Shown piece after piece: positions 2,990 to 36,376 of a stretch of 64,000 bases of DNA (positions are counted from its first letter, which is position 1; each line of letters starts with the position of its first letter). The notes under the pieces were generated by a model. It saw only the letters and a list, made by a program, of their open reading frames with translations, was not told where the DNA came from and searched no databases. The DNA comes from Candidatus Phyllobacterium onerii (GTDB lineage Bacteria; Pseudomonadota; Alphaproteobacteria; Rhizobiales; Rhizobiaceae): positions 248,001-312,000 of the forward strand of contig NZ_JAQMHX010000006.1 of the NCBI RefSeq assembly GCF_028331445.1. Reading direction: 5' to 3'. The translations under genes were made by a program, and so were the position numbers.

Positions 2990-3053
2990 AGTTCCCGGAG
3001 TGGGCCACCTCTCCCCAACGAGAGGCGAGCTATCTGTAAGGATAGGAGAAAAC
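2990..3053 (+). ncRNA. Probable serC leader RNA (cis-regulatory)
   Basis: Two small hairpins lie directly before serC: CCTCTC / GAGAGG (3008-3013 with 3020-3025, six-base loop) and CTATC / GATAG (3030-3034 with 3041-3045). The 3' arm of the second runs into the ribosome-binding site AGGAG (3044-3048), so folding could limit translation. A conserved serC motif RNA with two hairpins near the Shine-Dalgarno sequence of serC is known from Rhizobiales. Assignment rests on position and architecture, without a covariance-model score. Confidence 0.55.
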
Positions 3054-32200: not shown

Positions 32201-33142
32201 TTAGGGCCGTTCAGCATGGAAAGGATCCATCATTTGCCAGATGGGTGGGTCGCCGATATGGCGCACAAGGTGGTCTACAAACGCTCTAACCTTGGCCGAG
32301 ACATGCCGTGTAGGCGGATACACCGCATATATTTTGTAGGGAACTGGCGTCACATCAGGCAGCGCCGGAATGAGAGTACCCGCTCGCAGGGCGTCGGCGG
32401 CAATGAACATTGGAAGTAGGACCAGCCCCAGACCGGCAATTGCCATGTCGCGCATGGCTTCGCCATTATTGGCGACGATGCGGCCATGCATGGCCACCGA
32501 GATCGGGTCATTGGGAGAAGCCGGGTTTTCGAATTGCCATAGCTGGCTGGTATTGACGTTTGAGTAGTCGATGCAGGCGAAAGAGCTCAGTTCTTCGAGT
32601 CGCTTTGGCAAGCCATTGGCTGCGGCGAAAGCCGGGCTGCAGCAAATAACCCGGGCGTCCGTGCAAAGCTTGCGTGCAATAAGGCTTGAATCCTTGAGGA
32701 TGCCGATACGGATGCCAACGTCATAACCACCACGCACCAGATCGACCATGCGGTCTTCAAATTCCACCGCGACTTCCAGATCAGGATATTGCCTGGCGAA
32801 GTCGGCAATCATCCGTCCAAGATAAAGAGTGCCGAATGACATCGGAGCGGCAATCCTCAAATTGCCCCTGATGGCGCTGTGTCGCTCACCAACGGTATCG
32901 GTGGCTTCAACGATCTCCCGAACCAAGGGCGTGATCCGCTCGACAAAGTCGCGGGCGTGGTCAGATGCGAGCAACTTACGTGGCGAGCGCTGAAACAGCT
33001 CTATACCCAGTGCACCTTCAAGATCGGAAATGCGCTTGCTTACCACCGATTTTGAAAGGTTGAGACGTGCAGCGGTCACCGTGATGCTGCGGGTTTCCAT
33101 TACGTCAAGAAAAGTGAGAAGATCATCGAAGCGCCATTTCAT
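32201..33142 (-). CDS. LysR-family transcriptional regulator
   Basis: This 313-residue regulator has an N-terminal winged helix-turn-helix (MKWRFDDLLTFLDVMETRSITVTAARLNLSKSVVSKRISDLEGALGIELFQRSPRKL written in parts: LTFLDVMETRSITVTAA, LNLSKSVVSKRISDLE). A type-2 periplasmic-binding-like effector domain follows (~90-300). It is divergent from a VOC-family ring-cleaving dioxygenase-like gene, 167 bases away. A second such gene follows on the minus strand, which suggests control of quinone, hydroquinone or aromatic-electrophile detoxification. The effector is unknown. The ATG at 33142 gives the usual LysR start. Confidence 0.88.
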   Translation of the reverse strand: MKWRFDDLLTFLDVMETRSITVTAARLNLSKSVVSKRISDLEGALGIELFQRSPRKLLASDHARDFVERITPLVREIVEATDTVGERHSAIRGNLRIAAPMSFGTLYLGRMIADFARQYPDLEVAVEFEDRMVDLVRGGYDVGIRIGILKDSSLIARKLCTDARVICCSPAFAAANGLPKRLEELSSFACIDYSNVNTSQLWQFENPASPNDPISVAMHGRIVANNGEAMRDMAIAGLGLVLLPMFIAADALRAGTLIPALPDVTPVPYKIYAVYPPTRHVSAKVRAFVDHLVRHIGDPPIWQMMDPFHAERP

Positions 33143-33309
33143 TGTTTGGTTATAGTGGACTTTAGGCCGATTTAGAACGCCTGTGTCCTGCATTAGTTCG
33201 TTTTTGCCGAACACGGGTTGCAGAGATCCGCTCTTTATCGGCCGCTACACAACGCAGATATTTACACCAACGGCGATTATGCCCGAACGAACCAATTCAG
33301 GAGGCTTCG

Positions 33310-34263
33310 ATGACCTTACAACTGACAGGTATTCATCATTTGACTGCCGTAACGGCGAATGCGCCGGAAAATCTGCGGTTCTATACGCAAACGCTTGGCC
33401 TGCGACTGGTCAAGAAAACCGTCAATCAAGACGACACCAGCGCCTATCACCTCTTCTATGCAGATGGAGAGGCAACGCCCGGCACCGATCTCACCTTCTT
33501 CGACTGGCCGGTTGGACCCGAAAGCCGCGGTACGCACAGCATTTCGCGTACGGGTTTGCGTGTGGGCAGCAAAGCAAGTCTGGTATGGTGGAAAGCTCGC
33601 TTTACCGAACTCGGCGTAAAGTCCGGTGATATTGCTGAAATCGGTGGCTATGACTCGCTTGATTTTGAAGATGGCGAAGGACAACGGTTCCGGCTCATCA
33701 ATGATGGCGGCGCAGGAGCATCGCATCCGTGGGACAGGAGCCCTGTCCCGGCTGAGCATCAGATCCGCGGGCTCGGTCCAATCACCCTCAGCGTGCCCGA
33801 TATTACCAACACCGAAGCGATCCTTCTTCATGTGATGAATATGCGCAAGGTCAACACTTACCCCTCTCCAGACGGTGCCGGGCATGTTCATGTGTTTGCT
33901 ATGGGCGAGGGCGGTCCTGCTGCTGAATTGCACGTGGCCGTTCAACCGGATCTTCCGGCTGCAAGGCAGGGTGCCGGTGCTGTGCATCACGTCGCATTTC
34001 GCGCCCCGGACGTGCAGCAATTGCATGAATGGACCGAACGTTTGAACGAATTCCGGATGCCGTCAAGCGGTGAGGTAGAGCGCTACTACTTCCGCTCGCT
34101 GTACTTCCGCGAACCGAACGGCATTTTGTTCGAAATCGCCACAGATGGTCCGGGCTTCACGGTCGATGAGCCCTTGGAGACTCTCGGGGAGGGCTTGTCG
34201 TTGCCGCCATTCCTTGAAGGCAAGCGCGCTTCGATCGAAGCCGGGCTCAAGCCTCTGTCGTAA
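33310..34263 (+). CDS. VOC-family ring-cleaving dioxygenase (MhqO-like)
   Basis: This 317-residue protein consists of two vicinal-oxygen-chelate domains. Metal ligands are visible as GIHHLTAVT (His near residue 8-9), [11 protein letters not shown] (His near 222) and the glutamate in [14 protein letters not shown] (~276). The pattern matches MhqO-type enzymes, which open hydroquinone or related aromatic rings. GAGG sits just before the ATG with good spacing. It is divergent from a LysR gene and followed by a terminator and a convergent gene of the same family fused to a hydrolase. The substrate is inferred from family only. Confidence 0.85.
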
Positions 34264-34270
34264 CGAAATT

Positions 34271-34299
34271 GAACAGACCGGAGAAACTCCGGCCTGTTC
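34271..34299. terminator. Bidirectional terminator between the two dioxygenase-like genes
   Basis: A 13-bp stem with one mismatch (GAACAGACCGGAG / CTCCGGCCTGTTC) and an AAA loop lies between the stops of the convergent genes. Confidence 0.75.
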
Positions 34300-34301
34300 C
34301 T

Positions 34302-35849
34302 TTATGGGGTCAACCATTGCTTAACCGCGTCAATGTCGTGCGGTCCGATTTCATGATCGGCGGATACTGCCTTGACGGTGATATCAGCTCCGGCGCCGCA
34401 CAGTTCCGCCTCAAGCGCGGGCGCATGTGCTCCAAACAGATCGTGGTCGCCGGTGATTGCAAGAACTTTCGTCTCAAGAAGATCAGCCTTGGGCGTCTCT
34501 TCCAGCACTTTTGTTGCGCGCAACAAAACTGCATTGCGGACAATGCCCGGATGAAGTTGCATCATTGCCGCGATAATGTTCGCGCCATTGGAATAGCCGA
34601 GTAAAGTAGTCCGTTGGAGATTTAGGTCGTAGGCTTCAACCGCGCCCTCTATAAACGCGGCAAGTGCTTCGGCCTCCGAACGAATGTCCTTTTGATCAAA
34701 GCTCAGTGGTCCAAAGCGCCGGAACCAGCGGGCCGAACCCTCTTCCGTGCTGCGTCCGCGCAAACCAATCAAGGTGGCGTGCGGGGCAACCTTCGAGGCA
34801 AACGGCATAAGACTGGTCTCATTGCCTCCCGATCCATGCAGGAGGATCAGTGTTTGTCCAAAGGTGATCTCCGGCATGTAGACCCGGTGGATGAACGGCA
34901 GCTCGCGATAGATGAAACGCTCCTCTTTCGGCAAGCCAAATTGCGGCAGTATTACTTTCAGGTTTTCAGTTTCCTCGGCGAAATGCGGCGGGATGAACAG
35001 GCGGGTGCCAAGCTTCTCAGGCGTTTCGTCAATCAGCATGCCGGGGCCGTCGGTAGCCATTTCGAGCAGGGTGCCGCTAGGCTCGCGCACGTAGATCGAA
35101 TGGAAATATTTCCGGTCATGCATTGCCGTTGCGGTCATTCCGCGTGCTACCAAGCGATCATACGTTGCCGTTACAGTGGGAATGTCCGCAGCGCGAAAAG
35201 CAATATGGTCTATGGTGCCGGTTCCGGGTGCCGAGCCCCAGAAGCCTGTTGCGTCGCGAACGTCGATGCAATCGCCGGACGCCGAAACCATTCTTGTAAT
35301 CGTTTCGGTTTGCTCGCCTGAAATGTAAGAAAAATAATCTGCAAGGAATGTGCACGTTTCCTGCGGCTTTTCGGTCAGTATTGTCGCGCCGCGGATGCGT
35401 TTGATCGCATGAGATGCAGGAATGTCGCCACCGACCCAAAGATCGCCGCCCTCTACGGCATGAGTTCCCACGAGCTTCACGATCACGCCATCGGGATCAT
35501 GTAAACGCAGCACCGGTTCGCCGAATTCCTGTGCTGGTCCTGAGGTAGCAATGTTGAATTGCAGGGCACGTGTCAGCCAGAAGCCGATGCTATCAGGGGC
35601 AATAGCGAGTGAGATTTCGCTTGGCTGCCCGTAGCCAACGCGACCCGGCGAACCATCTTCCCATACGAGAAAGGTAATCAGAGAACCTGGATTGCCTGAT
35701 GCGTCTCCATAGAGGAGGTGGAGCTGGGTTGCGTCTTCATAACCGCCCGTGCGCTTGACGAGGCGCAGACCGAGGAAGCCGGCATAAAAATCGACATTTG
35801 CCTGAACCTTCCGTGTGATCAGGGTGATGTGGTGGATGCCGCCTGTCAT
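34302..35849 (-). CDS. Fusion of a VOC ring-cleaving dioxygenase and a serine hydrolase
   Basis: This 515-residue two-part protein has residues ~1-310 as a complete MhqO-like dioxygenase (GGIHHITLITRKVQANVDFYAG, TIDHIAFRAADIPTV, EPSGTLLEMATDGPGM). Residues ~320-515 form an alpha/beta-hydrolase of the phospholipase/carboxylesterase (MhqD/YpfH) type. Hydrolase motifs are LILLHGSGGNETSL, the nucleophile elbow LLGYSNGANIIAA (serine near 418), the aspartate in TGDHDLFG (~468) and the histidine in SADHEIGPHD (~498). In Bacillus, mhqO and mhqD are separate genes of the quinone-responsive MhqR regulon, so the fusion ties a ring opener to a hydrolase likely acting on the product. GGGAG precedes the ATG. 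Confidence 0.88.
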   Translation of the reverse strand: MTGGIHHITLITRKVQANVDFYAGFLGLRLVKRTGGYEDATQLHLLYGDASGNPGSLITFLVWEDGSPGRVGYGQPSEISLAIAPDSIGFWLTRALQFNIATSGPAQEFGEPVLRLHDPDGVIVKLVGTHAVEGGDLWVGGDIPASHAIKRIRGATILTEKPQETCTFLADYFSYISGEQTETITRMVSASGDCIDVRDATGFWGSAPGTGTIDHIAFRAADIPTVTATYDRLVARGMTATAMHDRKYFHSIYVREPSGTLLEMATDGPGMLIDETPEKLGTRLFIPPHFAEETENLKVILPQFGLPKEERFIYRELPFIHRVYMPEITFGQTLILLHGSGGNETSLMPFASKVAPHATLIGLRGRSTEEGSARWFRRFGPLSFDQKDIRSEAEALAAFIEGAVEAYDLNLQRTTLLGYSNGANIIAAMMQLHPGIVRNAVLLRATKVLEETPKADLLETKVLAITGDHDLFGAHAPALEAELCGAGADITVKAVSADHEIGPHDIDAVKQWLTP

Positions 35850-35925
35850 GAGTATCTCCCGGCCTATCAATATTCGACTGTTACGGGGTAGCAAGCAGGG
35901 ACGCAACGCTCGGAAAAGTATTTCC

Positions 35926-36047
35926 AAAAAACAACACCCACCGCGGGAGGAGCGGTGGGTGCTACTTGTAAAGATCAGCTGGGAGGAGACCGATCTTTAG
36001 ACCATCCGTGACTTGGGAGGAACGTCCCGGAGGTTAATCGAATTCTA
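35926..36047 (-). ncRNA. Tandem CcsR/cuckoo-type anti-Shine-Dalgarno sRNAs, three hairpins
   Basis: Directly after the DUF1127 stop, the minus strand carries three consecutive stem-loops, each presenting the same loop UCCUCCC. Hairpin C is at 36006-36030 (loop 36015-36021, stem with one mismatch). Hairpin B is at 35970-35998 (AAAGATC / GATCTTT, loop motif 35981-35987). Hairpin A is at 35935-35961 (10-bp perfect stem CACCCACCGC / GCGGTGGGTG, loop 35945-35951) and is followed by UUGUUUUUU, a terminator. CCUCCUCCC-type loops complementary to the ribosome-binding site, found in tandem behind a DUF1127 gene, define the CcsR (Rhodobacter) and cuckoo RNA families. The motif, order and terminator are seen directly; processing into separate sRNAs is inferred. 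Confidence 0.8.
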
Positions 36048-36197
36048 CTACTGAGCAGAAGCAGCTTTCCTGGCGACGAAGGAGATATCGCCGCGGGAGA
36101 TGCCAAGGTCATTCAGTTCACGTGCGGACAGGCGGTTCAGTTCCGTGACGGTATCACGATAGCGGCGCCAGTTATTGTAAGAGCGGATCAGGTTCAT
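36048..36197 (-). CDS. DUF1127 small basic protein
   Basis: A 49-residue protein (MNLIRSYNNWRRYRDTVTEL, then NRLSARELNDLGISRGDI, then a short Ala/Lys-rich tail) shows the whole DUF1127 (YjiS-like) motif. Such arginine-rich proteins in alphaproteobacteria can bind RNA and affect phosphate and stress responses. The ATG at 36197 has AAGGTGAG upstream, and a longer frame to 36323 is not supported. An inverted repeat, AACTTG / CAAGTT (about 36272-36289), lies about 75-90 bases upstream and may be a regulator site. The gene forms one transcript with the three anti-Shine-Dalgarno hairpins that follow, an arrangement in which the mRNA is both coding and the sRNA precursor. Confidence 0.85.
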   Translation of the reverse strand: MNLIRSYNNWRRYRDTVTELNRLSARELNDLGISRGDISFVARKAASAQ

Positions 36198-36376
36198 TTC
36201 ACTCACCTTGTAGGTTCTTGTTTGTTTGATCATTTTTCGATCATGCTGCTCATATAGTAGACAGCCTGCCGAACTTGCAGTGACAAGTTTGCATAGCTGC
36301 TTTGCAACGAAATGATGGATCACCTCCGTGCGAAACGTCAGGCGCTGAAGGTCGATTTGACATTCTTGCCTGCTGA

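Follow-up and report, generated by a model that had tools for sequence, protein, structure and literature searches.

A DUF1127 gene of Candidatus Phyllobacterium onerii with an ar14-type small RNA in its 3' UTR and a predicted VtlR/LsrB-like promoter site

Does a short DUF1127 gene that ends just before three hairpins with anti-Shine-Dalgarno loops serve through its protein, through a regulatory RNA or through both, and which regulator acts on it? We investigated such a locus of Candidatus Phyllobacterium onerii (Rhizobiaceae) in a window of 64,000 nucleotides, by which we mean the whole stretch of contig NZ_JAQMHX010000006.1 that was analysed (positions 248,001 to 312,000); coordinates below are those of the window. 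Published work is cited from excerpts of the respective papers. We propose that the unit is probably a small mRNA activated by LsrB/VtlR, whose 3' end would be set free as an sRNA of the ar14 family and act by pairing with Shine-Dalgarno sites.

The DUF1127 gene and its 3' UTR

The features identified at the locus, from the gene and its RNA to the predicted promoter elements, are the following.

36048..36197, minus strand: DUF1127 gene, 49 aa, stop codon included (PF06568, 59.1 bits, cut-off 23.3)
35929..36039, minus strand: ar14 (NfeR1/cuckoo-type) sRNA in the 3' UTR (RF02344, 61.7 bits, gathering threshold 58.8, whole model)
36001..36034, minus strand: hairpin 1, UCCUCCC at 36015-36021 (fold and pattern)
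35969..35999, minus strand: hairpin 2, UCCUCCC at 35981-35987 (fold and pattern)
35929..35967, minus strand: hairpin 3, UCCUCCC at 35945-35951, terminator-like, with T run (fold, pattern and terminator scan)
36290..36304, minus strand: VtlR/LsrB-like box CAAAGCAGCTATGCA (13/15 to the published Brucella VtlR motif)
36252..36257, minus strand: -10-like element CTATAT, 32 nt past the box (exactly 32 nt in 20/20 orthologues)

As the earlier note had described, the DUF1127 gene is followed on the minus strand by three UCCUCCC hairpins, and these indeed start within about 20 bases of its stop codon, with 13 nt between the stop and the first paired base. The nearest named relatives of the DUF1127 protein belong to Phyllobacterium (P. 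brassicacearum, 94% identity). A single heptamer is unremarkable (8 occurrences of TCCTCCC in the window vs. 7.1 expected); a cluster of three on the same strand, spanning at most 120 nt, was obtained in 1 of 300 Markov-simulated windows. Positions 35926-36047 of the minus strand fold as three hairpins with a minimum free energy of -47.2 kcal/mol (z = -5.02), and none of 200 shuffled sequences was as stable. The predicted fold leaves the heptamer fully unpaired in loops 1 and 3 and pairs its first two bases in loop 2. The last hairpin, previously read as the terminator, is terminator-like: a T run follows it, and it was flagged by a simple terminator scan, which finds 0.8 per shuffle.

The RNA passed the ar14 covariance model RF02344 (61.7 vs. 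58.8 bits, 35929-36039 of the minus strand, model positions 1-123). The name CcsR was absent among the Rfam matches at the gathering threshold in the window. The ar14 family has been reviewed and tied to the cuckoo RNAs (PMC7143759), and Rhizobiales RNAs with CCUCCUCCC loops are treated in PMC3927594. CCUCCUCCC is the loop published for the ar14/NfeR1 family (PMC10746234), and UCCUCCC is a shortened form of it. Short DUF1127 genes with CcsR-like RNAs were described as CIN1 loci (Reinkensmeier and Giegerich 2015, via PMC10253847). In the window, an RNA of the ar14 family likewise lies beside a short DUF1127 gene, which ends 8 nt before the start of ar14. The organisation of the CcsR/cuckoo type, as suggested earlier, is therefore supported by the ar14 family match with the DUF1127 gene in front, the arrangement published as CIN1. 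We conclude that the locus is a real, conserved and further CIN1/ar14 unit, of a kind that is already known.

Elsewhere in the window, positions 32201-35852 contain two glyoxalase-domain genes beside a LysR regulator, one of them fused to an MhqD-like esterase domain (below the model cut-off), which is perhaps a quinone-detoxification group. An Rfam serC leader (RF00517, 66.2 bits) is located at 2998-3050 on the plus strand.

ar14 units in the genome and the genus

The genome yielded eight ar14 matches at E <= 10. Five were above the threshold (107.5, 82.9, 81.3, 74.6 and 61.7 bits), with the window copy as the weakest. DUF1127 was matched nine times at E <= 0.1, two of these directly before an ar14 copy. 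We refer to the DUF1127-ar14 unit of the window as class D and to the one on contig C5 as class A.

In the same-genus set (20 genomes, own included), each genome carried two ar14 matches at E <= 1e-4 with a DUF1127 ORF at most 1000 nt upstream. The class D unit is orthologous in 20/20 genomes, with 4-12 nt between the stop codon and the ar14 start. For class A this distance is 3-11 nt in 19/20 genomes and 276 nt in the remaining one (G013), where an extra stretch with inverted ends looks like a small insertion element. Class B copies of ar14 are present in 20/20 genomes and class C, the remainder, comprises 24 copies in 18 genomes; an upstream DUF1127 gene was absent in both classes. The class E copies (15 genomes) lie behind a phasin gene, which was assigned by family (TIGR01985) in the own genome and through alignment in the remaining ones. 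In the own genome, this ar14 (C1:251949-252064) starts about 18 nt after the phasin gene. A VtlR-like box was missing in the 200 nt before the class E copies of the own and 14 other same-genus genomes. The phasin-ar14 arrangement may represent a second kind of mRNA with a possible ar14 tail.

The earlier note had named loss of the loop sequence in relatives that retain the DUF1127 gene as evidence against its reading. Across the 20 genomes, with the DUF1127 gene still there, TCCTCCC was kept in 59 of the 60 class D loops; the sole lost heptamer is that of loop 3 in the G009 copy. The loops of the stand-alone class B copies carry TCCTCCC in 60/60 cases. Of the 31 pairs in the class D consensus fold, 10 changed on both sides, 5 changed on one side and 16 showed one standard pair type, with non-pairing cells amounting to 28/620 of the alignment (gaps counted); these counts lean towards the structure, because structure and counts share one alignment. 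As far as this alignment shows, the stems covary and the loops are nearly fixed.

The full 9-mer CCUCCUCCC occurs in 0/3 loops of the window copy vs. 3/3 of the sister copy on contig C5, and the 9-nt loop CCTCCTCCC was found in 32/60 class D loops vs. 59/60 class A loops. Class D loops are thus partly shortened, and the window copy is without any long form; these short loops and its lowest score of the five copies count against our proposal. They also bear on an unlikely reading of the locus, in which the unit is a decaying paralogue that duplicates the better-kept class A unit, with a redundant RNA that is wearing away, while the DUF1127 protein and the terminator alone still matter. Such decay would agree with the scores of the two copies (61.7 bits in the window vs. 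107.5 for class A) and with the disappearance of CCUCCUCCC from all three loops in 6/20 class D copies, the window's included and G009, which also lost its loop 3 heptamer, among them. Against it speak the heptamers that were kept, the compensating changes in the stems and a predicted promoter whose box, CTATAT and spacing were kept in 20/20 orthologues.

A VtlR/LsrB-like box in the promoter region

In the stretch that separates the DUF1127 start from the gene upstream of it, the 20 orthologues share three conspicuous conserved blocks: a box rich in TGCA, the hexamer CTATAT and the start region AGGTGAGTGAAATG. We compared the box with the Brucella VtlR-binding motif CAATGCAGCCATGCA (quoted in PMC12595884). 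It matched at 13/15 positions in the window and at 11-14/15 in 20/20 orthologues, 101-109 nt before the ATG; among 1263 overlapping background segments, 0.3% reach 13 and 9% reach 11. The distance from the end of the box to CTATAT is exactly 32 nt in all of them, and the signature published for alphaproteobacterial sigma70 promoters has CTATAT as its -10 (PMC10746234). A sigma70 scan gave one match, at the ORF start (36202-36174; 0.5 expected per shuffle).

In S. meliloti, the promoter of NfeR1 is a direct target of LsrB, which activates it, and the LsrB site before NfeR1 has the form TGCA-N6-GCAT, a close match to the site before AbcR1 (PMC10746234). This form was found in 0/20 class D promoters, which speaks against our proposal; therefore, the window unit fits the Brucella site form alone. 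Elsewhere, TGCA-N6-GCAT was present in class A (20/20), class B (10/20), class C (1/24) and class E (0/15). Compared with the Brucella 15-mer, class A reached 11-12/15, which is background level and likewise speaks against the proposal, class B 11-13/15 in 20/20 genomes and class C 8-11/15, so that class C mostly shows neither form. A single box form for all ar14 classes was rejected, as class D has the Brucella form, class A has TGCA-N6-GCAT and class E has none.

Over the whole genome, the box pattern GCWGCYATGCAA shows hardly any enrichment (12 occurrences vs. 9 of the reversed control), which counts against the LsrB/VtlR reading, and with 10 of the 12 away from ar14 promoters the pattern was not accepted as evidence that a regulon exists. 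We likewise rejected an additional promoter within the DUF1127 ORF that would serve the RNA, the best box match there being 8-9/15 in 20/20 genomes and not above background.

The genome contains a LysR gene flanked by trxB and an AbcR (ar15) copy, which is the published place of lsrB/vtlR. From the trxB-lsrB-abcR order, we infer that this gene is the lsrB orthologue. Five ar15/AbcR copies were detected in the genome; by eye, TGCA-N6-GCAT stands before the lsrB-linked copy alone, and the four further ar15/AbcR-type copies appear to be without it. Searching the five ar15 copies for the other box form by regular expression gave no match.

The earlier note had named dependence on RpoH as a point to test; on this reading, the unit would be an RpoH-driven stress operon exactly like ccaF1-CcsR of Rhodobacter. 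The gene-plus-hairpins arrangement is the same, transcription in Rhodobacter starts from an RpoHI/RpoHII promoter (PMC10253847), and the consensus sequences of sigma70 and RpoH overlap in S. meliloti (PMC3616915). We nevertheless regard this reading as very unlikely here: the region's one CTTG, the sole site tested for RpoH, is present in 14/20 orthologues, compared with 20/20 for the VtlR-like box and CTATAT at their fixed spacing. RpoH control via a conserved CTTG-type -35 was accordingly rejected. The conservation of the promoter region suggests LsrB/VtlR, and not RpoH, as the regulator to look at first.

The unit across the family and its proposed function

The DUF1127 protein was found in 145 of the 151 genomes and in 103 of the 109 genera searched of the GTDB family. 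We assembled one DUF1127 locus per genus, the window's included (75 genera), and the fractions obtained do not represent independent trials, because the loci are related and were picked by protein similarity: in the 300 nt that follow the stop codon, 60/75 loci have at least two TCCTCCC and 50/75 at least three. The other strand of these 300 nt had none in the 75, and a control stretch 250-550 nt upstream contained at least two in 9/75. A box of at least 12/15 was present in 46/75 loci vs. 0/75 control segments (64 vs. 3 at 11/15). Further, among the 42 loci whose plus-oriented box reaches at least 12, a CTATAT-like hexamer (at least 5/6) occurred at spacing 32 in 27 (26/41 without the window's). 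At other spacings from 15 to 60, the same 42 loci had such a hexamer twice, at spacing 54; 13 had none.

Stable 3' hairpins can protect mRNAs and the third hairpin is terminator-like, but that the three hairpins do no more than stabilise the 3' end of the DUF1127 mRNA and terminate it, with an incidental loop sequence, is likewise very unlikely, since the loops are nearly invariant while the stems vary and the same loops recur in stand-alone class B (60/60) and 3' of DUF1127 in 60/75 genera.

An Rfam scan that covered 55 DUF1127 loci from other genera detected ar14 downstream in 37. The remaining 18 were without a downstream ar14 above threshold (9 with ar14 upstream only and 9 with none), which argues against our proposal of an LsrB/VtlR-activated mRNA with an ar14 3' end. 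A tRNA gene was located about 300-540 nt upstream in 19 of the 55 loci, on the opposite strand in 18. In 80 named loci, at least three TCCTCCC were found within 220 nt in 60, at least two in 70 and at least one in 77, and a box of at least 12/15 in 47.

In the nine genera with ar14 upstream only, it lies on the same strand as the DUF1127 gene, as in S. meliloti Ak57 (CP090106.1, labelled pSymB though 3.7 Mb long). The order in Ak57 is ar14-ar14-DUF1127-DUF1127-trmFO; RNA and protein genes adjoin, in another order than here. TGCA-N6-GCAT starts 71 nt before the model start of the second ar14 and was not found within 150 nt of the first.

B. pituitosa, B. gallinifaecis and B. tritici LMG 18957 yielded three DUF1127 loci each. 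All nine of these Brucella-group loci have at least two loops downstream and CTATAT or TTATAT 32 nt past the best box; the best box match is 10-13/15, and ar14 is above threshold in 8/9. Three VtlR-activated DUF1127 genes have been reported in Brucella (PMC12595884), and the nine loci of the three species examined presumably correspond to these three genes. In Agrobacterium, VtlR binds the atu1667 promoter directly and activates this gene, for which small protein or small RNA is a published question (PMC7486931). The window unit resembles these genes in being a small gene with a VtlR-type promoter site, here predicted, and differs in its ar14, which goes unmentioned behind the VtlR-activated Brucella genes and atu1667 in the excerpts of PMC12595884 and PMC7486931.

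With ar14/NfeR1 of S. meliloti (Smr14C2, SmelC397), the RNA of the window shares three hairpins with anti-Shine-Dalgarno loops and passed the same model. NfeR1 silences its targets through loops that pair with translation start regions (PMC10746234, PMC7143759). Its promoter is activated by LsrB, and a VtlR/LsrB-like site likewise stands before the window unit. In contrast to NfeR1, which has its own sigma70 promoter (PMC7143759), the RNA here lies 8 nt behind a DUF1127 gene; its loops carry UCCUCCC where NfeR1 has CCUCCUCCC, and TGCA-N6-GCAT is absent. Compared by arrangement, the unit is similar to the CIN1 locus ccaF1-CcsR1-4 of Rhodobacter sphaeroides, with a short DUF1127 gene, RNAs directly after it, a terminator and a promoter before the protein gene. 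Unlike that locus, with its four CcsR RNAs and RpoHI/RpoHII promoter, it has one three-hairpin ar14 and a VtlR/LsrB-like box. For ccaF1-CcsR, release of the RNAs from the 3' UTR by RNase E, aided by the DUF1127 protein, has been published (PMC10253847). In the parts of the open literature that our search covered, we found no report joining a VtlR/LsrB site, DUF1127 and ar14, which does not prove that there is none.

Based on these comparisons, we propose the following course of events. A sigma70-type promoter would be activated by LsrB/VtlR binding at the box. A single short transcript would then carry the 49-aa DUF1127 ORF together with the ar14 RNA 8 nt past its stop and would finish at ar14's own terminator. 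RNase E would free the RNA from the 3' UTR, as published for ccaF1-CcsR, and each UCCUCCC loop would pair with the Shine-Dalgarno sites of target mRNAs and block their translation, as published for NfeR1. The proposal starts from what can be read off the sequence, i.e., the gene and RNA families, their close linkage, the covarying stems and nearly fixed loops, the spacing of box and -10-like element and an ORF with no box in it.

Predicted duplexes of the loops with the unit's own leader range from -6.6 to -9.8 kcal/mol, compared with -14.7 to -15.9 for the invented sequence GGGAGGA and -10.9 to -11.2 for AAGGAGG. The own start region AGGUGAGUG is thus predicted to pair more weakly with the loops than either, and the unit may therefore spare itself from its own RNA, which we take as a hint, no more.

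For the family as a whole, we see about even chances that LsrB/VtlR-activated DUF1127 genes are dual-function transcripts ending in an ar14/NfeR1-type sRNA, with LsrB/VtlR driving AbcR, NfeR1 and the 3'-UTR RNAs as one anti-Shine-Dalgarno regulon. If this is true, NfeR1-type genes that stand alone would represent a split version of this module, for which S. meliloti Ak57 is an example, and effects credited to the small proteins could partly belong to the RNAs. The question of protein or RNA for atu1667 would then have its answer. The value of the locus lies in its promoter, where a VtlR/LsrB-like site stands at one fixed distance from the -10-like element in many genera. This promoter joins three separate published facts: the activation of NfeR1 by LsrB, the activation of DUF1127 genes by VtlR, and the association of DUF1127 genes with cuckoo-type RNAs. 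Thereby the role of the VtlR-dependent small genes becomes testable by parting the protein from the RNA.
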